Shown one piece after another: positions 2,943-44,934 of a stretch of 64,000 nt of DNA; positions within the stretch are counted from its first letter, which is position 1, and each line of letters begins with the position of its first letter. The notes beneath the pieces were generated by a model. It saw nothing but the letters and a program-made list of their open reading frames with translations. It was not told the DNA's origin and did no database searches. The stretch covers positions 1 to 64,000 of the forward strand of contig NZ_JAGJCF010000022.1 of NCBI RefSeq assembly GCF_017815135.1, in the 5' to 3' direction. This DNA comes from Jiella mangrovi. GTDB lineage: Bacteria > Pseudomonadota > Alphaproteobacteria > Rhizobiales > Rhizobiaceae. Position numbers and translations under genes: made by a program.

Positions 2943-3821
2943 TCACGGCCTGTCGCCGGTCAGCTCTCGCAGGAGTGGATTGGGAAATTGGCGTTTGAGC
3001 GTCACGGCATAGAAGGTCTCGGACATCTGAGGGAACTGATCGACTTCCAGAAGCTCGCCGCGTTGCAATTCGTCTTTCACGACGATCGGCGGCACGATGG
3101 CAAGACCGACGCCCTCCCGCGCGAGGAGGCGGATCATGGCCATGTCGTCGACCTCGGCGGCGATGCGGGGGCGAATGTGCAGGCGATCGAACAGCGCGTC
3201 GAGCCCGGATCGGATGCTGCTGTCGATCGTCGGCAGGACGAGCGGTTGGCGTGAGAGCAGCTCTTCGAAGGTGGATCCGTTGCCGAGCCGTTCCGGTGTT
3301 CCGATGAGGCTGACGGGCTGTTCGGCGATCGCGTGGGAAATCCACGGTGTGGCCGCGTCGCGTGGTGGCGAGATCGTCGCGAGAACCACATCGAGCCGGT
3401 GTGCCTCAAGGTTCTTCAAAAGGTCGCCGAGGGCGCCCGAACGGATGACGATCTCGACGTCGTTGCGGCCGAGCAGCGGCTGGAGATATCCGATCTGGAA
3501 ATTCCTGGAGAGCGTCGCCTGCGACCCGACCCGCAGCACCCGGCGCTGGTCGGACGTTCGCCCGCGAAGGGTGTTCACGAGCTCATCCCCGGCAGCGAAG
3601 ATCGCGTCGGCATGGTCGAGGGCGATCTGCCCCGCCTCGGTCAGGACCAGCGAGCGTCCCTGCCGATCGAACAGATTCTGCCCCAGGCGTTCCTCGAGCT
3701 GGCGGATCTGCGTCGACACCGCCGACTGCGACACGTTCAGGCGCTCGGCCGCGCGGGTGAGATTGCCGTCGCGGGCGACGGTCCGGAAATAGCGGAGGTG
3801 GTGAAAGTTCAGTTCGCTCAT
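2943..3821 (-). CDS. LysR family regulator divergent from the dab genes
   Basis: A 292-residue LysR-type regulator. The N-terminal winged helix-turn-helix (residues 5-63) contains LTRAAERLNVSQSAVSTQIR, and the rest is a periplasmic-binding-protein-like effector domain. It diverges from the fused dabBA gene, and LysR genes often control the operon they diverge from, so it is the probable regulator of inorganic carbon uptake here. It is not clearly CbbR; the effector domain is too divergent to assign by eye. No Shine-Dalgarno sequence precedes the ATG, because the space is taken by a perfect palindrome two bases upstream of the start. Confidence 0.88.
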   Translation of the reverse strand: MSELNFHHLRYFRTVARDGNLTRAAERLNVSQSAVSTQIRQLEERLGQNLFDRQGRSLVLTEAGQIALDHADAIFAAGDELVNTLRGRTSDQRRVLRVGSQATLSRNFQIGYLQPLLGRNDVEIVIRSGALGDLLKNLEAHRLDVVLATISPPRDAATPWISHAIAEQPVSLIGTPERLGNGSTFEELLSRQPLVLPTIDSSIRSGLDALFDRLHIRPRIAAEVDDMAMIRLLAREGVGLAIVPPIVVKDELQRGELLEVDQFPQMSETFYAVTLKRQFPNPLLRELTGDRP

Positions 3822-3930: not shown

Positions 3931-6900
3931 ATGACCTATGATCTGGCTTTGGCGATCGGCCCCGCCGCTCTCCTTCTGGCCGCAACTTTCGCCTTCTGTC
4001 TTCCGGGGCGCCGCCAACCCCTCGTCGCCAGAACCGCCGAGGCGGCGACGATCCTTGCCTTCGGCGCATCGGCCGTCTCGGCCATCCTGTTGATCGCCCA
4101 TGGCGCAAACACCGGTCCGGTCATCGGCCTTGGCGGTATCGGATACTCGGCGCGGCTCGATCTGGTGAGCGCGACGATGTCGATGCTCGTCGCCTTCGTC
4201 GGCTGGATCGTGATCCGGTATTCGGCCTCCTATCTCGACGGCGAGGCGCGGCAGGGGGCTTTCCTCGGCTGGATGATGACGACGCTCGCCACCGTGCTGC
4301 TGCTCGTTCAGGCCGGCAATCTCGTTCACTTCGTCCTCGCCTGGATCGCCACCAGCATGTGCCTGCACCGGCTGCTCCTCTTCTACGGTGATCGCGTTCA
4401 GGCCCGGCGCGCCGCTCGCAAGAAATACATCATCGCGCGGATCGGTGACGTCGCTTTGATCGGCGCGGCCCTCCTGCTCTATGGCGGCTACGGCACGCTG
4501 GACATCGCGTCGATCCTGTCCGCTGCAAAGGCTGGCGATGCGCCTTCCGGCATCGTCTGGGCCGCGGGCTTGCTGGCGCTCGCGGCGGTGCTGAAATCGG
4601 CGCAGTTCCCATCCCATGGCTGGCTGACGGAGGTGATGGAAACGCCGACGCCGGTTTCGGCGCTGCTGCATGCCGGTGTCGTCAATGGCGGCGGGTTTCT
4701 GCTCATCCGCTTCGCCGACGTCATGCTGCTTTCTCCGGGCGTCCTGGCCGTGCTGGTCATGATCGGCGGCTTCACCGCGCTCTTCGGCGGCCTTGCGATG
4801 CTCTCGCAGTCGGGCGTGAAGAACTCGCTCGCCTGGTCGACGATCGCCCAGATGGGGTTCATGACGATGCAGTGCGGGCTCGGCCTGTTTCCGCTGGCGC
4901 TCCTGCACATCGTCGCGCACTCGCTCTACAAGGCCCATGCCTTCCTGACGTCGGGAACGGCCGTCGATCTGGTGGCTTCGCTTCGCCGGCCGGGCCCGAT
5001 CGCCATCCCCAACGGCCGGGCGGTGCTGCGGGCCTTTGCGCTGGCGCTGGCGATCTATGCGGTGATCGGTTTCGCCTTCGGCTTCGATCACAAGTCACCG
5101 CAGGCGATCGCCCTCGGCGCCATCCTGATCTTCGGCGTCGCCTATCTGCTCGCCCAGGGTCTGGCCGATGCCGCGCCGCGGGTGCTGACCCGGCAGACCG
5201 CGCTCTATGCCGTCGGCGCCTCCGTCAGCTACTTCGCGCTGCAATCTGCCGCCGAGTGGCTGGCCAAGGGCGCGCTGCCGCCGACGCCGGCGCCCGGTGC
5301 CCTGGAATGGGGGCTGATCGTCCTCGCCGTTCTGAGCTTCGGCGTCGTCGCTGTGGCGCAGGCGATGTTCCCGCTCTGGTCGGATCATCCGGCGGCCGCG
5401 GGCCTGCGGGTGCATCTGACCAACGGCCTTTATGCCAATGCGCTCTTCGATCGGCTCATGGACAACTGGTCGACGGGCGATGCTCCCCTCGGCGCAAAAG
5501 AGGAGACCGCGCTGGACGAAGACCTCGTTCCGGCCGGTAAGATCGGCGACGGCGCGCTCGAAGCGGCCGCGGACGCAGCCGCGCGGCAGATCCCGCCGCT
5601 GTGGCCGCTGTCGTCGTCCGTCGCCGTCAACCCGTTCCTCGGGCAGACGACACAGACGCTCGCGGAGACCGGCGCGCGGCTTGCCCGCCTGGGCGACACC
5701 CCCGTCACGATGAAGCGGTCCTGGTATCGCGACAGGATCGCCGCGGGCACGATCGGGGAGGGGGACCTCGCCGCGGCGCTTCAAGCTTCACCGCATGCCA
5801 ATGCTCCGGCGAACGTCATGGCGCTGAGGGCAGCCGCCGCCAAAGAGCGGCCCGAGCCCGGCGCGCTGCCGACGATCGCCGAACTCGCGGCGCGGGCGAC
5901 GGCAGTCGACTGGCCGGGGATCATCTCGGACCGCTTCGGCCTCTGGGCCGGTGGCTATCTCGATCAGGGCCAGGCGTTGTGGGCGGCGCCGCGGGGCAGA
6001 TCGGCCTGGGCGGCGTGGTGCGCCTACGCGACGCACGATCTGACGCCCGAGATCATGGGGCTGAAAGGCTTTGCGGCCTTCGTCGCCGATGCGCCGGAAA
6101 GACCCGGCGAAGCAGTGGCGCGGGCCGCCCGGCGGCTCGGCCTCACCGATGCGGCCCTCGACAGCTATTTCCACCAGTTGCTGCTGTCCCTCGGCGGATG
6201 GGCGCAATATGCCCGCTACGAGCTGTGGCGCGCCGAGCTGGCGGGAGGCACGGATTCGACGCTGCTGGACATGCTGGCGATCCGGCTTATGTGGGAAGAG
6301 GCGCTGCTGGCCCGGCACGAGGCGGCGATCGGCAGCGAATGGGCGGCCGTCCGCAGCGTTCACGAGACGCCGATCGTTCCCTCGCAGGACGACGTCGTCG
6401 ACGAGATCCTGCAGGAGGCCGCCGAGCGCGCTGTCCAGCGTGAACTTGCCGGCACACTTGAAAGCGTCACCCCGATCGCTCGCGAAAGCCGCCCGGCGAT
6501 GCAGGCCGCCTTCTGCATCGACGTTCGCTCCGAGGTCTTCCGGCGGGCGCTCGAGGCGGTGAGCCCATCGATCAGGACTCTGGGTTTCGCCGGTTTCTTC
6601 GGCGTCTCGACGAGCCACCGGCGCTTCGCCTCGGACGTGGTGGAACGGCGGTTCCCCGTCCTGCTCAACCCTGCCGTCGGCTCGGCGTCTGGCGGGCAGG
6701 ACGACGCCGACGACGATCTCGCGACCCGTTACAGGGCGCGGGCGAAACGCGCCTGGGGCCGGTTCAAGCTGGCGGCCGTTTCGTCCTTTGCTTTCGTCGA
6801 GGCGACGGGGCCGGTCTATGTGGGCAAGCTGTTGCGCGATGGTCTGAACCTTCACCACCACGCGGCGCCGAACGATCCGGCGCCGCGTTTCGAGCCCGAA

Positions 6901-7938
6901 CTCGACCTCGAAAGCCGCATCGCCGCGGCGGAGACCGTCTTGCGGGCTATGTCTTTGACCGACGGTTTCGCCCGGATCGTCCTCCTCGTCGGGCATGGCG
7001 CGCATGTCGTGAATAACCCTCATGCCAGCGGGCTGCATTGCGGGGCCTGCGGCGGCTATTCCGGCGACGTCAACGTGCGGCTGCTCGCGGGCCTATTGAA
7101 CGATCCGAAGGTGCGCAGCGGCCTCGCCGCGCGGGGCCTCGTGCTGCCGGACGACACCCTGTTCGTCGGTGCGCTGCACGACACGACGACGGATCGGGTG
7201 ACGATCTACGAAGCCGACGTCGCTGCCAACGACCATGCCGCCGATCTCGTCCAGATCCGCAAATGGCTCGACGAGGCCGGCAGGCTCGCACGCGGCGAGC
7301 GGGCTCTGCGGCTGCCGGGGGCGTGCCATGAGGGCGACATTGAGCTGCGCTCGCGCAACTGGGCGGAGGTGCGTCCCGAATGGGGGCTCGCGGGATGCAA
7401 GGCCTTCGTCGCCGCGCCCCGCAACCGGACCGTCGGTCGCAGCCTGGAGGGGCGCGCCTTCCTGCACGACTACGGCTGGCGTCAGGACAGTGAGCGCGGC
7501 TTCCCGGTGCTCGAGCTGATCATGACCGCGCCCGTCGTCGTGGCGAGCTGGATCAGCCTGCAATATTACGGCTCGACGGTCGCGCCCGAGACCTTCGGCG
7601 CGGGCAACAAGCTCCTCCACAACGTCGTCGGCGGCATCGGCGTCTTCGAAGGCAATGGCGGTCTTTTGCGGGCCGGATTGCCCTGGCAGTCGATCCATGA
7701 CGGCGAGGCCTATGTCCACGACCCCTTGCGGCTTTCGGTCTGCATCGAAGCGCCGCGGGAGGCGATGAACGACATCCTGGCGCGCCACGAAGGCGTCCGG
7801 GCGCTCTTCGACAATCGCTGGCTCCACCTCTTTGCCCTCGACGAACGGGGACGGCTCGCATGGCGCTATGCTGGCGGGCTCGAATGGGAGCCGGTGGAGA
7901 CTTCGGCAATGGCCGCTGATCTGGAGGACGTCGCATGA
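3931..7938 (+). CDS. dabBA: Fused DabB-DabA inorganic carbon transporter (NuoL-like proton channel joined to DUF2309)
   Basis: A 1335-residue protein joining two parts normally encoded by adjacent genes. Residues about 1-520 form a polytopic membrane domain of the NuoL/Mrp antiporter family, with the signature [20 protein letters not shown] followed by VSALLHAG. After a linker (about 520-545) the DUF2309/DabA part begins at [19 protein letters not shown]. Putative zinc and catalytic residues of the beta-carbonic-anhydrase-like site are visible: C862 and D864 in CIDVRSE, H1022 in GHGAH, and C1037 in HCGACGG. The 15-residue H-to-C spacing equals the one I recall for characterised DabA. In known DAB systems DabA hydrates CO2, driven by proton flow through DabB. 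The frame is open throughout, so the fusion is not a sequencing join visible here. A LysR gene diverges upstream. Confidence 0.9.
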
Positions 7939-8111
7939 CCATCCGTCAGACAGGATCCCGGCTTTCGCTTCTCGCCGGGCCGGGCGCCGGCGATCTCCCG
8001 TCGGTCGTCGACGTGACACTCCCCGCCCGGACGCGCGAGCGCCCGGGCAGGATCGCGGGCAGCGCCGATGCCGGCTCGCTGGAGCCGCAGCAGCGGCAAG
8101 GGAGCTTTTGA
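7935..8111 (+). CDS. Small protein of unknown function in the dab operon (58 aa)
   Basis: A 58-residue open frame whose ATG overlaps the dabBA stop codon (ATGA), which suggests translational coupling. It ends one base before the ATG of the next gene. The product begins [17 protein letters not shown], is rich in Gly, Pro, Arg and Ser, and has no membrane segment or cysteine. I do not recognise it. The tight packing is the main support. It could instead be a non-coding spacer that happens to be open. Confidence 0.45.
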
Positions 8112-8112
8112 G

Positions 8113-8979
8113 ATGGCGCCGCCGGCTCACTATTCGCTTCAGGGCAAGCGCGCCGCACTCGCCACCATGCATGGCAAGGAGCGGGTGATCGCGCCTTTGC
8201 TCGAAGGAGCACTGGGACTTCATGTCAGCGTGCCGCAAGGGGTCGACACGGATCGGTTCGGCACGTTCAGCCGCGAGATCGAGCGGACGGGAAGCCAGCT
8301 CGATGCGGCGCGCCGCAAGATCCTCGCCGCTTTCGATGCCGACCCCGATGCGGATGTCGCGATTGCCAGCGAGGGCAGCTTCGGCCCGCATCCCGTCTAT
8401 TTCTTCGCGGCGCTGGGGAGCGAGATCGTGGTCCTTCAAGACCGCCGATCGGGCCTCGAACTGATCGGTCGCCAGGCCGACCTGAAGACCAATTTCGGCC
8501 ATGTGACCACTCGCTCGGTTGACGACGCCGCAGCTTTTGCCGAGCGGATCGGGTTTCCTGAGCATGGGGTGATCGTGATCGGCACGTCGGGCGGCGACCC
8601 GGCACCCGAGCGATATCTTCGCAAGGACGTGTCGAGCCTCGAAGAACTGGCGGCGAGCGTGAACGAAGCCATCGCCGCATGCGGGGAGGCCCATGTCGAG
8701 GCCGATATGCGCGCCCATCGCAATCCGACGCGCATGCGCGCGATCAGACGGGCGACCGTCGACCTCGTCCGTGTTTGCCGGTCGCTCTGTCCCCGGTGCG
8801 CGCGCCCCGGCTTCGTCGTTACCGAGACGCTTGCCGGCCTGCCCTGCGACTGGTGCGGCACCGCGACGAATGCCGTTCGGGCAGAGGTCTCCGTTTGTGC
8901 CGGCTGCCGGTATCGCGCCGAGAATCCCGTCGCGGCGGCGGTGGCCGATCCAGGCCATTGCCCACGCTGCAATCCGTAG
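8113..8979 (+). CDS. DUF6671-like protein with C-terminal double zinc ribbon, dab operon
   Basis: A 288-residue soluble protein. The N-terminal part (about 10-190) contains ATMHGKERVIAPLL and a VIVIGTSGG stretch. The C-terminal 70 residues hold four CxxC pairs (CPRC, CDWC, CAGC, CPRC), expected to form two zinc ribbons. I believe this is the DUF6671 family, which tends to occur beside DUF2309 genes, but that assignment is from memory. A GGGAG sequence eight bases before the ATG supports this start over an ATG at 8068. The place in the operon suggests an accessory or regulatory part in inorganic carbon uptake; the biochemical role is unknown. Confidence 0.75.
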   Translation: MAPPAHYSLQGKRAALATMHGKERVIAPLLEGALGLHVSVPQGVDTDRFGTFSREIERTGSQLDAARRKILAAFDADPDADVAIASEGSFGPHPVYFFAALGSEIVVLQDRRSGLELIGRQADLKTNFGHVTTRSVDDAAAFAERIGFPEHGVIVIGTSGGDPAPERYLRKDVSSLEELAASVNEAIAACGEAHVEADMRAHRNPTRMRAIRRATVDLVRVCRSLCPRCARPGFVVTETLAGLPCDWCGTATNAVRAEVSVCAGCRYRAENPVAAAVADPGHCPRCNP

Positions 8980-11682: not shown

Positions 11683-12411
11683 CTAGATCCGCAGGTGCTC
11701 TTCGAGGGTTGCGGCCGTATCGGCATGGGCCGCATCCCCGCGCGCGACGATCTCGCCGATCTTGAGGATGGCATAGCGATCGGCGACGGACAGCGCGAAG
11801 GGCAGGTTCTGCTCGACGAGAAGCACGGCGACACCGTTCTTTTGCTTGGTGGCCTTCAGGACCTCCGCCATCTTGGCCACCATGGTCGGCTGCAGGCCCT
11901 CTGAAATCTCGTCGATCAGCATGATCTTCGGCCGGGCGATCAGCCCGCGCGACAGGAGCAGCATCTTCTGCTCGCCGCCCGACAGCGTGCCGGCGCGCTG
12001 ACGCAGGCGCTCCACGATCCGCGGGAAGGCGGCTTCGACGTCTCCCATCCGGTCCTCAAGCAGATCGTCGCTCTCGACGCCGAGCCGCAGATTTTCGGCG
12101 ACGGTGAGGTCCTGGAAGATCGCGTATTCCTGTGGCGTATAGGCGACGGCTCGCCGGGCGATCAGATGCGGCGGACCGTTGGTGATGTCCGCCCCGTCGA
12201 GCGCCACCGTTCCGCTGGAAGCGCGCACGAAGCCCATGATGGTCTTCAAAAGCGTCGATTTGCCCATGCCATTCTTGCCGAGGATGACCAGGATCTCGCC
12301 GGGGTCGATCGAAAAGGACACGTCCCTGACGACGGGCGCGGCGTCGTAGCCGCTGGTGAGGCCAGCGACTTCGAGGACGCTGTGGGAGGAACCGTTCAGT
12401 AAAGCGCTCAT
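11683..12411 (-). CDS. Liv-type ABC transporter ATP-binding protein (LivF)
   Basis: A 242-residue ABC ATPase of the branched-chain amino acid/amide/urea group. Walker A is GKNGMGKST, the signature is LSGGEQ, and Walker B is PKIMLIDEIS. The ATG at 12411 overlaps the stop codon of the upstream permease-ATPase gene (ATGA), and the length matches LivF and UrtE. It pairs with the ATPase half of the upstream fusion to energise import of an amide-like solute. Confidence 0.92.
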   Translation of the reverse strand: MSALLNGSSHSVLEVAGLTSGYDAAPVVRDVSFSIDPGEILVILGKNGMGKSTLLKTIMGFVRASSGTVALDGADITNGPPHLIARRAVAYTPQEYAIFQDLTVAENLRLGVESDDLLEDRMGDVEAAFPRIVERLRQRAGTLSGGEQKMLLLSRGLIARPKIMLIDEISEGLQPTMVAKMAEVLKATKQKNGVAVLLVEQNLPFALSVADRYAILKIGEIVARGDAAHADTAATLEEHLRI

Positions 12412-14231
12412 GCCGGCGCCTCCGTCTCCTGGCCCGAATAGACCGCCTTGACGAGATCGGAGGAGACGACCTCCTCGACGCTGCCGTCGAGCAGCATCTT
12501 GCCCTGATGAAGGACGACGATCCGGCTGGAGATCTCGCGAACGAAATCGAGATCGTGCTCGATCAGGAAGACGCAAAGCCCGTAATCCTCGACGAGCCGG
12601 GTCAAGACGCTGCCGATCGCGGTGCGCTCGGCCTTGGTCAGGCCCGCCGTCGGCTCGTCGAGCAGAAGGACGCGCGGTTCGGTGGCGAGCACCATGGCCA
12701 GCTCAAGGCCTCGCTTCATGCCATGGGAAAGGTAGCGGGTCTCGAGGCCGAGCTGCCGGTCGAGCCCGGTCGCCTTGAGGATGTCGAGGGCAGGCTCGGG
12801 CAGGGCGACCTTGTCGCTGCGCTCGAAATAGCGGGCGCCGTCGATGCGGTAGCGGGCCAGGCGCAGGCAGTCGCCGACAGTCAGGCTGTCGAACAGGCTG
12901 GTGTTCTGGAAGCTGCGGCCGACGCCGAGCGCAACGATCTTCTGCGGCGATTTCCGCCCGATGGTCTCGCCGCCGATCGTGACCTCGCCGCCGCTGCGCT
13001 CGCTGCCATTGCTGATGCAGCGCATCAGCGTGGTCTTGCCGGCGCCGTTCGGCCCGACGATCGACAAAAGCTCGCCCCTCCTGCCCTCGACCTCGATCCC
13101 GTCGAGAACCGTGAGGCTGCCATAGCGGCAGGTCAGCGCCTCGATCCTGATCGGGGACGTGTCGGCCGCAAGGTTTTCTTCCAGCCCGCGTCCCTTGGCC
13201 GGGACGAGGGTGACGGTTTCCCGGTGCATGTGCGCCGCGGCGCCGTCCTTGCCGTGTCGCTTGTAGCGGCGCCAGGCACCGGTGACGAGCGAGGCGATGC
13301 CGTTTGGCAGGAGGATGATCACCACGACGAATGCGACGCCGACGATGAATTTCCACAGGAAGGGAAGGCTGCCCGACAGATAGGAGGAGGTGACGTCGAT
13401 GCCGATGGCGCCGAGGATCGGCCCGATCAGCGTCGCCCGGCCGCCGAGCGCGACCCAGATCAGCGATTCCGTTCCGAGCAGAAAGCCGGCAAGTTCCGGC
13501 GCGACGACGTCCGTGAAGGCCGCGTAGCCGAAGCCGGCGACCGCTCCGATCGCTCCGCAGACGACGAAAAGCCCCGTCTTGATGCGCGAGACGGGGATGC
13601 CGAGATAGGCGCAGCGGTCCTCGTTCTCGCGGATCGCGATGAGAATGCGGCCGAAGTCGCCGCGCACGAAGAGCCAGGCGAATGCGGCGACGACGACGAG
13701 AAGCGCGCCGGCAATGACGAACCATGTGGCGAGCGACCAGTAATAGGTCGGAAAGCCCGAAAGCCCGCTGCTCGATCCGGTGAAGGTGCCGCCGGCAAAG
13801 ATGATCTGGACGAGGACGATCGGCAGCGCCAGGGTCATGATCGAGGAGTAGAGCGGTGAGGCGCCGTGATAGAAGGACAGAAGTCCCACCAGCCACGCCA
13901 CCAGCGCCGCCGAAACGATCGCGATGACGAGCGCTGCGGCGAACCATCCCGGGCCGAAGCCCCAATGGGTGAACACCAGTGCGCAGGCATAGGCGCCGAT
14001 GCCGTAAAAGGCGGACTGGCCGAACGTCAGGATCCCGGTGTAGCCCCAGACGAGATCGACCGTCAGTGCGAGCACGCCCAGAAAAAGGGCGCGGATCATG
14101 ACGTTGGTCAGGTAGATGCCGAGGAAGTGCGGTGCCGCCACGACGACGGCTAGTGCGAGCGCGGCCACGATCGCCGTCGCCCAATAGGACGAAAGCGAGC
14201 GCCCTGCGCGTTCGGAGGCGATGTCAACCAC
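12408..14231 (-). CDS. Fused Liv-type permease (LivM) and ATPase (LivG)
   Basis: A 607-residue fusion. Residues about 1-320 are a LivM-type inner membrane permease (VWGYTGILTFGQSAFYGIGA is characteristic). Residues about 345-600 are a LivG-type ATPase with Walker A GPNGAGKTTL (K399) and LSHGMKRGLELAMVLATEP in place of the canonical LSGGQ. Such fusions occur in several alphaproteobacterial Liv systems. It overlaps the next gene by 4 bp and the upstream livH by 8 bp, so the transporter genes are co-translated. The altered signature is normal for LivG/UrtD members. Confidence 0.92.
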   Translation of the reverse strand: MVDIASERAGRSLSSYWATAIVAALALAVVVAAPHFLGIYLTNVMIRALFLGVLALTVDLVWGYTGILTFGQSAFYGIGAYACALVFTHWGFGPGWFAAALVIAIVSAALVAWLVGLLSFYHGASPLYSSIMTLALPIVLVQIIFAGGTFTGSSSGLSGFPTYYWSLATWFVIAGALLVVVAAFAWLFVRGDFGRILIAIRENEDRCAYLGIPVSRIKTGLFVVCGAIGAVAGFGYAAFTDVVAPELAGFLLGTESLIWVALGGRATLIGPILGAIGIDVTSSYLSGSLPFLWKFIVGVAFVVVIILLPNGIASLVTGAWRRYKRHGKDGAAAHMHRETVTLVPAKGRGLEENLAADTSPIRIEALTCRYGSLTVLDGIEVEGRRGELLSIVGPNGAGKTTLMRCISNGSERSGGEVTIGGETIGRKSPQKIVALGVGRSFQNTSLFDSLTVGDCLRLARYRIDGARYFERSDKVALPEPALDILKATGLDRQLGLETRYLSHGMKRGLELAMVLATEPRVLLLDEPTAGLTKAERTAIGSVLTRLVEDYGLCVFLIEHDLDFVREISSRIVVLHQGKMLLDGSVEEVVSSDLVKAVYSGQETEAPA

Positions 14232-41052: not shown

Positions 41053-44000
41053 GTGGCGACCATCGTTTTTCAGGCGGCCGGGGCCGCGTTCGGCACCATT
41101 CTCGGTGGCCCGCTCGGCGCCGTGATCGGCCGTGCGGCCGGCGCGTTGGCCGGGTCCATCTTCGACGGACAGCTGTTTTCCGAGACGAAGCGCTACGAGG
41201 GGCCGCGGCTCGAGGCCGGGCGCGTCATGACCGCCGACGAGGGCGGCGGCGTGGCGCGCGTCTACGGCGCGGCACGGGTTGCCGGGCAGGTGATCTGGAC
41301 GACGCGTTTCGAGGAGAAGAGCGAAACCGAGCGGCAGGGCGGCAAGGGCGGTGCGCCGACCAGCGAGGTCACCACCTACAGCTATTTCGGCAATGTCGCC
41401 GTCGGGCTTTGCGAAGGGCCGATCGCGGCGATCCGCAGGGTCTGGGCCGATGGTGAGGAAATGGACCTGTCGGAGATCGACGTCAGGGTCTATCTCGGCG
41501 ACGAGGAACAACAGCCTGACCCGCTGATCGAGGTGAAGCAGGGCGCCGGCAATGCGCCGGCCTATCGCGGGCTCGCCTATCTCGTCTTCGAGCGGCTTCC
41601 TCTCGAACAATACGGCAATCGCATCCCGCAGATCTCCTGCGAAGTTCTGCGGCCGGTCGGCCGATTGGAAGAGCAGGTCAGAGCCGTCACGATCATCCCA
41701 GGCGCCACCGAGCACGGGCTCGATCCCGAACGCGTGCGCGAGAAGCTTTCCGAGGGCGAGGACAGGCTGATCAACCGCAACGTCCTTCATGGCGACAGCG
41801 ACATTTCGGCCTCCGTCGATGAAATGCTCGCGCTCTGCCCCAATCTCGAGCGCGCGGCGCTCGTGGTTTCGTGGTTCGGGGACGATCTGCGGGCCGGCCA
41901 TTGCTCGATGCGCCCGAAGGTCGAGATCTCGAAGCGGCGCGAGAACACCAATTGGCGGGTCGCGGGCCTCAGCCGGGACAATGCCAGGACGGTCTCGACC
42001 GTCGATGGCAGCCCGGCTTTTGGCGGGACCCCGAGCGACGGCGGCGTGATGCGCGCGATCGCGGCGCTCAAGGACCGGGGGCTGAAGGTCACCTACTACC
42101 CGTTCCTGCTGATGGACGTGCCGCCCGGCAACGGGCTGCCGGATCCCTATGGCGAGCAGGAGCAGGCGGCGTTTCCCTGGCGCGGGCGGATCAGCCTCGA
42201 CGTCGCGGTCGGGCGAGCGGGAAGCGCCGACGGCACGGCCGACGCTCGCACGGCGATCGCGGCCTTTCTCGGTACCGCCGGGCCCGGCGATTATTCGTAT
42301 TCGGGCGGCCGCGTGACCTATCACGGGCCGTCCGAGTGGTCCTATCGCCGGATGATCTTTCACCAGGCCCGCCTTGCGGCGGCCGGCGGCGCCGACGCCT
42401 TCGTCATCGGCTCGGAGCTGCGCGGACTGACGCGCATCCGCGACCATGAGGGGCGCTTTCCTTTCGTCGAGGGTCTGATCGAGATCGCCGAGGGCGTGAA
42501 GCAGATCATGCCCGGCGCGACCGTGACCTACGCGGCAGACTGGAGCGAGTATTTCGGCTATCAACCGTCGGACGGCTCGGGCGACGTCTTCTTCAATCTC
42601 GATCCGCTCTGGGCCTCGTCGTCGATCGACGTCATCGGGATCGACAACTACCTGCCGATCACCGACTGGCGCGATGGCGATGAGGAGCCCGAGGCCGCCT
42701 CGATCTATGATCGGGACGGGCTGAAGGCCGGGATCGCGGCCGGCGAGTATTTCGACTGGTTCTACGAGAACGAGGAGGCGCGAGCGGAAAAGGACCGCAC
42801 GCCAATCAGTGATGGCGCGTACGGAAAGTCCTGGGTGTTCCGGCCGAAGGACATCGTCTCCTGGTGGTCGAACCGGCATTTCGACCGGCGCGGGGGCATC
42901 GAGATCGAGCAGCCGACGGACTACGTCCCGATGGCGAAACCGATCTGGCTGACCGAGCTCGGCTGCCCGGCGATCGACAAGGGACCCAACCAGCCCAACC
43001 TCTTCGTCGATTCCAAATCCGCCGAAAGCGCCATCCCCCATTTTTCCCGCGGCGGCCGGGACGATCTCGTGCAGCGGCGGTTCCTCGAAGCCCATCTGGA
43101 ACATTGGAGCCCGGGATCGGCGGGCTTCGACGAGGCCGCCAATCCGGCCTCGCCGCTCTATGGCGGGCGCATGATCGATCCCGCCGCCATACATCTCTGG
43201 ACCTTCGACGCACGGCCGTTTCCCGCCTTTCCAACGCTCACCGAGGTTTGGAGCGACGGCGAGAACTGGCGCCGGGGGCATTGGCTGAACGGCAGGCTCG
43301 GCAATGCGCCTCTGGACGCTCTGGTCGCCGCGATCCTGGAGCGCCATGGGATCGAGGCGCATGATCTGTCGGGGCTCGAGGCCTCGCTTGCGGGGTGGGT
43401 CGAGACGGGGCCGACCTCGGCGCGCGATACTCTGGAGAGCCTGTTCAGCCTCGTCGGCGCGGTCGCGCATGCCGAGGATGGCCGGTTCGTCGCGCGCTCG
43501 CTGGAGCGCCTTCGCCCCAAAGCCACGATCTCGGCTTTCGTCGATGAGGAGGACGCTCCCTTCGTCGAGCTTCGGCGGACCGAGGCCACCGCGACGGTCG
43601 ATGCCGTCGCCTTGTCGTTCCTCGACCCATGGCGCCACTATCAGCCCGGCAGCGCCGAGGCGATGCGCGCGAGCGTCGCCGCACCGCGAAGGCAGCTCAT
43701 CGGCTTGCCGGCCGTGATGGACGAGGCCGAGGCGGAGGCGTTTGCCGCCTCGATCCTCGCCGAAAATGGCTCGGTTTCGGAGACGGCGAGCTTCGCCGTT
43801 CCTGCCAGCGACCTCTCGCTCGCGGTTGGCGACGTCTTGCGTCTCGACGGACGCGATGGCGAATGGCTGGTCACGCGGATCGAAACCGGGGCGTCCAACC
43901 GGGTCAGCGCCAGGCGATTGCCGGTGCGGCGTGGCGGTGCGGCGGCCGGTGGCACGATACCGAGTGTCGCTCAGCTCCGCCCGGTCCTCGCGTCGCAGCC

Positions 44001-44934
44001 TTTCGCGGCCTTTCTCGATCTTCCGCTGCCGCCGGGGGGAAGCGGCTTCGAGGGCGCGCGTGTCGCCGTCAGTGCTTCGCCCTTTGCGGGCTACGAGGTG
44101 GCGAGCCTCTCCGACGATGGCACGTTGAAGTCGAGAGCGCGCGTGGCGCAGCCGGCAGTTCTCGGCCGGCTTGCCGGCGCACTCCGCCCCGGCCCCGAGG
44201 GACGCATCGATCCGGCAAACGACCTGATCGTCGAGTTGCCGCGCGGAGCGCTTTCGTCTGTCTCGCCGGCGTCGATGCTGTCAGGTGGCAATCTTTGCGC
44301 CGTTCGCTGCGACGATGGCGGCTTCGAGGTGCTGCAGTTCGAGCGGGCCGAAGAGATTGCGCCGGGACAATTCCGGCTCAGCCGGCTTTTGAGGGCGCAG
44401 GGCGGGACGGAGGACGCCATGGCGGCCGGAGCCTCGGCGGGCGCCGTCTTCGCACTTCTCGACGGGGCGAGTGCCGCGCTTTCCCTTGCCGAGGGGGACG
44501 TCGGACGGCAGCTGGAGTTTCGCGTTCAGCCCTTCGGTCGCGCCCGGGACGACGCGGCGGTGCTCTCCGAGAGCGCCGCCTTGGGGGGACGCTCCGTGCG
44601 GCCGCTTTCGCCAGTTCATCTGAGGGCAGCTTTTGCCGCCGATGGCGACGTTTCGATCGCATGGGTGCGCCGCACCCGGACCGGCGGCGACAGCTGGGCC
44701 GCGCGCGAAGTCCCGCTGGGGGAGGAAGCGGAACGCTATCATGTGCTGATCGAAGCAGAGAGCGGGATCAGCGCGACGATCGATACGAGCGAGCCGCGTC
44801 TTTCCCTGTCTGCGGCGGCGCAGGAGCAGCGTTTCGGTGTTCTGCCGGATGCCTTGGCAGTCTCGGTCGCGCAGGTCAGTCCCGTCTGGGGCGCGGGAAC
44901 GTTTCGCAAGGCGACGTTCCGGCGGCCTGGCTGA
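41053..44934 (+). CDS. GTA gp15: tail tip / host-specificity protein with glycoside-hydrolase TIM-barrel domain
   Basis: A 1293-residue protein. The N-terminus has a glycine/alanine-rich helix (IVFQAAGAAFGTILGGPLGA), then tail-tip domains. A GTA TIM-barrel-like domain follows at about 430-750, with E455 in VIGSELRGL and E635 in WLTELGCP at the positions of catalytic glutamates. A phage-tail_3-type region and beta-rich C-terminal domains end the protein. It contacts the recipient surface and may cleave its polysaccharide. It is the last gene of the structural cluster and is intact. Confidence 0.92.
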   Translation: MATIVFQAAGAAFGTILGGPLGAVIGRAAGALAGSIFDGQLFSETKRYEGPRLEAGRVMTADEGGGVARVYGAARVAGQVIWTTRFEEKSETERQGGKGGAPTSEVTTYSYFGNVAVGLCEGPIAAIRRVWADGEEMDLSEIDVRVYLGDEEQQPDPLIEVKQGAGNAPAYRGLAYLVFERLPLEQYGNRIPQISCEVLRPVGRLEEQVRAVTIIPGATEHGLDPERVREKLSEGEDRLINRNVLHGDSDISASVDEMLALCPNLERAALVVSWFGDDLRAGHCSMRPKVEISKRRENTNWRVAGLSRDNARTVSTVDGSPAFGGTPSDGGVMRAIAALKDRGLKVTYYPFLLMDVPPGNGLPDPYGEQEQAAFPWRGRISLDVAVGRAGSADGTADARTAIAAFLGTAGPGDYSYSGGRVTYHGPSEWSYRRMIFHQARLAAAGGADAFVIGSELRGLTRIRDHEGRFPFVEGLIEIAEGVKQIMPGATVTYAADWSEYFGYQPSDGSGDVFFNLDPLWASSSIDVIGIDNYLPITDWRDGDEEPEAASIYDRDGLKAGIAAGEYFDWFYENEEARAEKDRTPISDGAYGKSWVFRPKDIVSWWSNRHFDRRGGIEIEQPTDYVPMAKPIWLTELGCPAIDKGPNQPNLFVDSKSAESAIPHFSRGGRDDLVQRRFLEAHLEHWSPGSAGFDEAANPASPLYGGRMIDPAAIHLWTFDARPFPAFPTLTEVWSDGENWRRGHWLNGRLGNAPLDALVAAILERHGIEAHDLSGLEASLAGWVETGPTSARDTLESLFSLVGAVAHAEDGRFVARSLERLRPKATISAFVDEEDAPFVELRRTEATATVDAVALSFLDPWRHYQPGSAEAMRASVAAPRRQLIGLPAVMDEAEAEAFAASILAENGSVSETASFAVPASDLSLAVGDVLRLDGRDGEWLVTRIETGASNRVSARRLPVRRGGAAAGGTIPSVAQLRPVLASQPFAAFLDLPLPPGGSGFEGARVAVSASPFAGYEVASLSDDGTLKSRARVAQPAVLGRLAGALRPGPEGRIDPANDLIVELPRGALSSVSPASMLSGGNLCAVRCDDGGFEVLQFERAEEIAPGQFRLSRLLRAQGGTEDAMAAGASAGAVFALLDGASAALSLAEGDVGRQLEFRVQPFGRARDDAAVLSESAALGGRSVRPLSPVHLRAAFAADGDVSIAWVRRTRTGGDSWAAREVPLGEEAERYHVLIEAESGISATIDTSEPRLSLSAAAQEQRFGVLPDALAVSVAQVSPVWGAGTFRKATFRRPG

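Follow-up and report, generated by a model that had tools for sequence, protein, structure and literature searches.

A natural single-chain DabB-DabA protein in Jiella mangrovi, apparently derived separately from its actinomycetote counterpart

The sequence analysed, called here the window, is a 64,000-nucleotide stretch of Jiella mangrovi DNA (contig NZ_JAGJCF010000022.1, positions 1 to 64,000). Positions 3931-7938 of its plus strand form one uninterrupted frame, ATG to TGA, of 1335 amino acids, which carries both parts of a DAB inorganic carbon system (Table 1). Pfam places PF00662 at residues 71-111 (E 3.3e-07), PF00361 at 128-344 (E 2.5e-42) and the DabA family PF10070 at 548-1298 (E 1.7e-255), the last at full length (model positions 2-747 of 747). 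Among solved structures, Halothiobacillus neapolitanus DabA2 and DabB2 (PDB 9rd0) are the closest in sequence: chain B, DabB2, matches residues 7-511 (E 8.6e-71), and chain A, DabA2, matches residues 547-1325 (E 1.1e-171). An earlier note on this DNA had proposed a single frame with the channel at the amino terminal end, and the open reading frame and the Pfam search bear it out; its point that a single chain fixes a 1:1 ratio of the two parts is judged right. Translation finds no frameshift or stop between residues 510 and 550, either in the window or in the two alphaproteobacterial relatives that share the fusion. The gene is thus confirmed as a real natural fusion.

Table 1. Coordinates in the window of the fused gene's parts and of its neighbours
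Feature	Position	Strand	Basis
Divergent LysR-type gene, probable regulator of the fused gene, judged from position	2943..3821	-	PF00126/PF03466
DabB-like proton-channel domain, residues 1-509	3931..5457	+	PF00662, PF00361, 9rd0 chain B
Linker, about residues 511-545	5461..5565	+	Species-variable; open in all three alphaproteobacterial fusions
GAGGAGACC, candidate relic of an old dabA ribosome-binding site	5500..5508	+	Comparison with split L019
DabA domain (residues 548-1298), the catalytic part, resembling a beta-carbonic anhydrase	5572..7824	+	PF10070, 9rd0 chain A
C862, D864, R866: zinc ligand and Asp-Arg dyad (DabA2 C351, D353, R355)	6514..6528	+	Alignment with DabA2
E957: finger-motif glutamate (DabA2 E444), putative proton-path role	6799..6801	+	Alignment; role from available parts of PMC13144422
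H1022, C1037: other two zinc ligands (DabA2 H524, C539)	6994..7041	+	Alignment with DabA2
DUF6671 gene, repeatedly found downstream of dabA, putative member of the system	8068..8979	+	Profile match and recurrence

The linker had been put at about 25 residues. It is nearer 30-35, as residue 511 is the last to match DabB2, residue 547 is the first to match DabA2, and an AlphaFold2 model has coil over residues 511-539. In that model, made for residues 136-1335 only from 30 rows, pLDDT is below 50 over residues 483-535, which agrees with a flexible linker. Its quality is moderate (mean pLDDT 68, pTM 0.59), so it is too weak to reveal the docking of DabB and DabA. The best 50 of 296 Foldseek matches to the model are without exception NuoL-type chains of complex I or NDH-1, and none is a DAB.

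Are the functional residues of a DAB retained? The putative zinc and catalytic residues that had been picked out earlier, C862, D864, H1022 and C1037, are all present and align with C351, D353, H524 and C539 of DabA2. The spacing from the histidine to the last cysteine is 15 in the window and in Halothiobacillus DabA2, in agreement with the earlier note. All 22 positions discussed in PMC13144422 are identical in the window by sequence alignment: 11 of 11 in DabA (C351, H524, C539, D353, R355, S356, A376, E444, H585, D590 and L658 of DabA2) and 11 of 11 in DabB (I151, R182, D185, K235, S256, H260, K310, S316, H339, H343 and K347 of DabB2). The transition-state Gln/His of canonical beta-carbonic anhydrases is absent; L1153 aligns with DabA2 L658, which occupies that place according to the available parts of PMC13144422. 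In those parts it is proposed that proton transfer via DabB2 and the finger glutamate E444 of DabA2 activates CO2 hydration at a buried zinc. Since the same parts of DAB2 are present in the window protein, the same mechanism is what we would infer for it.

The same fusion occurs within the genus in Fulvimarina sp. NAT173 (L083, a MAG) and in Jiella pelagia HL-NP1 (L089, a complete chromosome); by translation, both frames are open across DabB, linker and DabA. Copies of these loci carry several labels: the window is L001 and L031, the Fulvimarina locus is also L062 and L145 (genome G684), and the J. pelagia locus is also L063, L146 and L187 (G681). The three fusions are 87-89% identical in DabB and 82-84% in DabA, with dN/dS of 0.124-0.141 and 0.151-0.186, respectively. 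Both domains are under purifying selection. Over the 34 linker codons compared, identity is 35-56% and dN/dS 0.38-0.84, and the window linker is longer by one whole codon than the other two. A linker that drifts so fast and yet keeps an open, continuous frame speaks for being translated, and the fused protein is probably functional.

How common is the arrangement? From 212 loci, 172 have a DabA match that spans 600 or more model positions; dropping copies more than 97% identical leaves 154. In 107 of these non-redundant loci dabB and dabA lie in different frames, in 42 they share a frame with a stop, in four they are fused and in one the stretch has no dabB match. The four fusions fall in two separate lineages, three being alphaproteobacterial and one actinomycetote (L188). 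Fragments and long DabA forms stand outside the 154 and were searched for single frames hit by both domain models; in the translated loci, these forms included, no fused frame was found beyond the four species. Among the translated loci a stop between the domains is missing only in the window (L001, L031), L083, L089 and L188. None of seven loci outside the 154 (L214-L220) is fused, L220 being a fragment with a stop. The earlier note had asked whether fused DabB-DabA proteins are already described as common: they are described, but at four of 154 non-redundant loci they are rare.

Genomes with a DabA match number 45 of 297 in the order, 25 of 199 in the family, 4 of 10 in the genus and 68 of 398 in the phylum (67 over the family's cut-off); the order, genus, family, phylum and class samples overlap. 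Such matches were also found in 19 of 296 genomes in the phylum of the actinomycetote L134, and in 10 of 198 in the class of G1279. In the order, family and phylum surveys, each untranslated match is either a fragment or has a listed frame of insufficient length for both domains. A whole-protein search of 385 genomes of the class gave, among the matches listed, a tally of 346, which takes in NuoL-like matches of every kind and does not count DabA. Plasmid records gave 384 matches, of which 60 were listed; 57 of these fall on two separate annotated genes and three have none under the match.

Two sets of long frames resemble fusions and are not. Apparent DabB plus DabA frames, e.g. in G598, G521 and G316, are listed frames that read through stops. 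Actinomycetota frames of about 1300 residues (L189-L193, L196, L200-L202) are long DabA proteins with DabB separate. DabA in these Actinomycetota loci has a long N-terminal extension or an insert; a NuoL-like frame lies upstream in L192 and downstream in several other loci of the kind.

How did the fused gene originate? A DabA tree was built from 63 of the 154 loci, picked because they resemble the window or L188, by a quick method with SH-aLRT support only, and 23 of its 60 inner branches are open. All three alphaproteobacterial fusions group in a single clade (SH-aLRT 100), which adjoins the split locus L071 (SH-aLRT 86, not starred) and lies near the split locus L070; both are from the same family as the window and have dabB and dabA in one frame. 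L188 stands apart from this clade, with other rows, on a long branch of unsure placement. Common descent of the window fusion with the actinomycetote one is not found in this 63-row tree, and because L188 lies elsewhere in it, no fewer than two changes are required to explain the fused state.

The junction is 183 nt in the fused loci L062 and L063 and in the split loci L071, L070, L018 and L034, in a comparison of twelve loci from which L102 was left out. The stop and the dabA ATG of L071, L070 and L018 appear as sense codons in the fused genes. Because the split genes of L071 and of L070 share a frame, loss of one stop and one start codon suffices. Three near relatives (L115, L092, L127) have dabB and dabA in different frames. 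The simplest reading, not a proven one, is that the one-frame state was probably ancestral: a normal dabB-dabA operon in the Jiella/Fulvimarina lineage, its genes probably already in the same frame, would have lost the dabB stop and the dabA start. Might a trace of the old start persist? In the window GAGGAGACC is followed by GCG, and in split L019 GAGGAGACC stands directly before the dabA ATG. A ribosome-binding-site relic is no more than suggested by this match, which is nine bases long and sits in a variable region. From tree and junction, the fusion apparently arose once in the Jiella/Fulvimarina lineage, separately from the actinomycetote fusion. Another genome of the genus, G685 (L147), has a split DAB whose DabA belongs to another clade; the genus has thus held two DAB versions.

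Might the fusion be an artefact of sequencing or assembly, a stop lost or a frame shifted by mistake? With dabB and dabA in the same frame and a stop between them at 42 of 154 loci, one miscalled base could mimic it. However, two further genomes have the same open fusion with differing linkers, and the dabA start codon as well as the stop is replaced by sense codons at homologous positions; with both domains also under purifying selection, this is not a sequencing slip, and an error is hardly credible. Decay of the fused protein, or loss of DAB function with one activity kept, e.g. ion conduction, would fit the absence of a DabA match from six of the ten genomes searched within the genus and the J. 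pelagia locus, where the neighbouring LysR and DUF6671 genes give only partial matches. It is very improbable, as dN/dS is 0.12-0.19 in both domains and all 22 functional residues checked are kept.

A different possibility accepts the open frame and has DabA also made alone from an internal start, so that fused and free DabA coexist. In the window a CTG at codon 528 sits 6 nt after GAGGAG, where a weak non-standard start is conceivable, and L083 has one GTG in the linker, at codon 534. But window codons 511-593 hold no in-frame ATG, GTG or TTG, the next being M594, within DabA, which makes free DabA unlikely. In L089 the first candidate start past codon 510 is TTG559, also within DabA, and no internal start common to the three fused species was found. 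The coexistence of both forms is therefore unlikely.

The preferred reading, to which we give a probability of about 0.86, is that the locus encodes a single-chain DAB/DAC for the hydration of CO2, and that this form descends, through one fusion event, from an ordinary dabB-dabA operon. By analogy with the DAB2 work, from which its catalytic and coupling mechanism is drawn, it would be a vectorial CO2 hydratase driven by the proton-motive force. The N-terminal DabB part would conduct protons through the membrane, and the C-terminal DabA part would be tethered to it by a flexible linker some 30-35 residues long. The DabA zinc site would hydrate CO2 to bicarbonate, switched on by proton transfer via DabB and the finger motif of DabA.

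What of the neighbouring genes and the host? A LysR match is present in 46 of 52 loci; in 45 of these the gene lies a short way upstream of dabB and is divergent from it. DUF6671 occurs in 20 of the 154 loci, a count that is a lower bound because many stretches hold little beyond 1 kb downstream; in 17 it follows the DabA frame at a distance of up to about 1 kb, on the same strand. It directly follows the fused gene in the window. In L083 and L089 a PAPS-reductase-family gene lies between dabA and the DUF6671 match, which is partial in L089. DUF6671 and dabA are also neighbours in the gammaproteobacterial loci L129 and L132, a hint that DUF6671 is linked to CO2/bicarbonate uptake. The host genome (4.9 Mb, 41 contigs) has one beta-carbonic anhydrase and gives no match to RuBisCO. 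This genome content suggests a role in bicarbonate supply for the ordinary carboxylations of a heterotroph, not in Calvin-cycle fixation.

Elsewhere in the window, positions 12408-14231 of the minus strand encode another fusion, of 607 residues, between a UrtC-like ABC permease and a UrtD-like ATPase of the branched-chain-amino-acid/urea type. Positions 41053-44934 of the plus strand encode a gene-transfer-agent tail protein (GTA_TIM, Phage-tail_3, Rcc01698_C), which suggests an RcGTA-like cluster within the window.

The earlier note knew of no described fusion. This does not hold, as the available parts of PMC13144422 (2026) name a natural single-subunit system of Acidimicrobium ferrooxidans, for which Schmid et al. 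2021 (J Bacteriol 203:e00377-21) is cited, and call an engineered DabB2-DabA2 fusion a mirror of it. The same parts report that two-gene DAB2 dissociated in purification and was fused to allow cryo-EM, and that the engineered fusion did not significantly affect growth yield. The available parts of PMC10880623 and PMC12628692 contain no mention that we found of a single-subunit or fused DAB or of Acidimicrobium, and no report of an alphaproteobacterial DAB fusion was found in searches of an open-access library. L188, from the actinomycetote G1279 (2.2 Mb), has a fused frame with DabB before DabA and a linker unlike that of the window. With the Acidimicrobium system and L188 at hand, the DAB system and the single-chain architecture are known; what the window adds is a second, apparently separately derived example.

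There may have been two or more origins of single-chain DABs, one in an actinomycetote and one among the heterotrophic Alphaproteobacteria of the Jiella/Fulvimarina group, where an in-frame stop and a start would have been lost and the fusion kept, possibly for the stability of the complex; we hold this whole proposal at even odds. Stabilization by the tether is a possible reason because two-gene DAB2 came apart in purification. If the proposal is true, the clade is a natural experiment on the effect of tethering upon a vectorial carbonic anhydrase. The fused genes and their split, same-frame relatives of the same family are a matched set for relating tethering to activity or stability, and the natural single-chain protein could be used for structural work on a complex that is hard to keep together. 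The understanding of how DABs work is unchanged by the finding.

Three known systems offer comparisons, and what is said of each from PMC13144422 refers to the available parts of that paper. DAB2 of Halothiobacillus neapolitanus (PDB 9rd0, 9rd8, 9rd9) has the same two domains, zinc site and proton-path residues as the window protein, but in nature it is encoded by two genes and is fused by engineering only, whereas the window protein is fused naturally. MpsAB of Staphylococcus aureus is a homologous pair in a non-autotroph; it is a two-protein complex from an operon, unlike the single-chain window protein, and has been proposed to be sodium-coupled, so proton coupling is assigned here by homology. 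The single-subunit DAC of Acidimicrobium ferrooxidans is like the window protein in that both subunits form one natural polypeptide, and the order DabB then DabA is common to the window, L188 and the engineered mirror of the Acidimicrobium system. The window protein differs from an Acidimicrobium-type DAC in its host, which lacks a RuBisCO match, and in a probable separate origin, as judged from L188, possibly but not certainly from that species.
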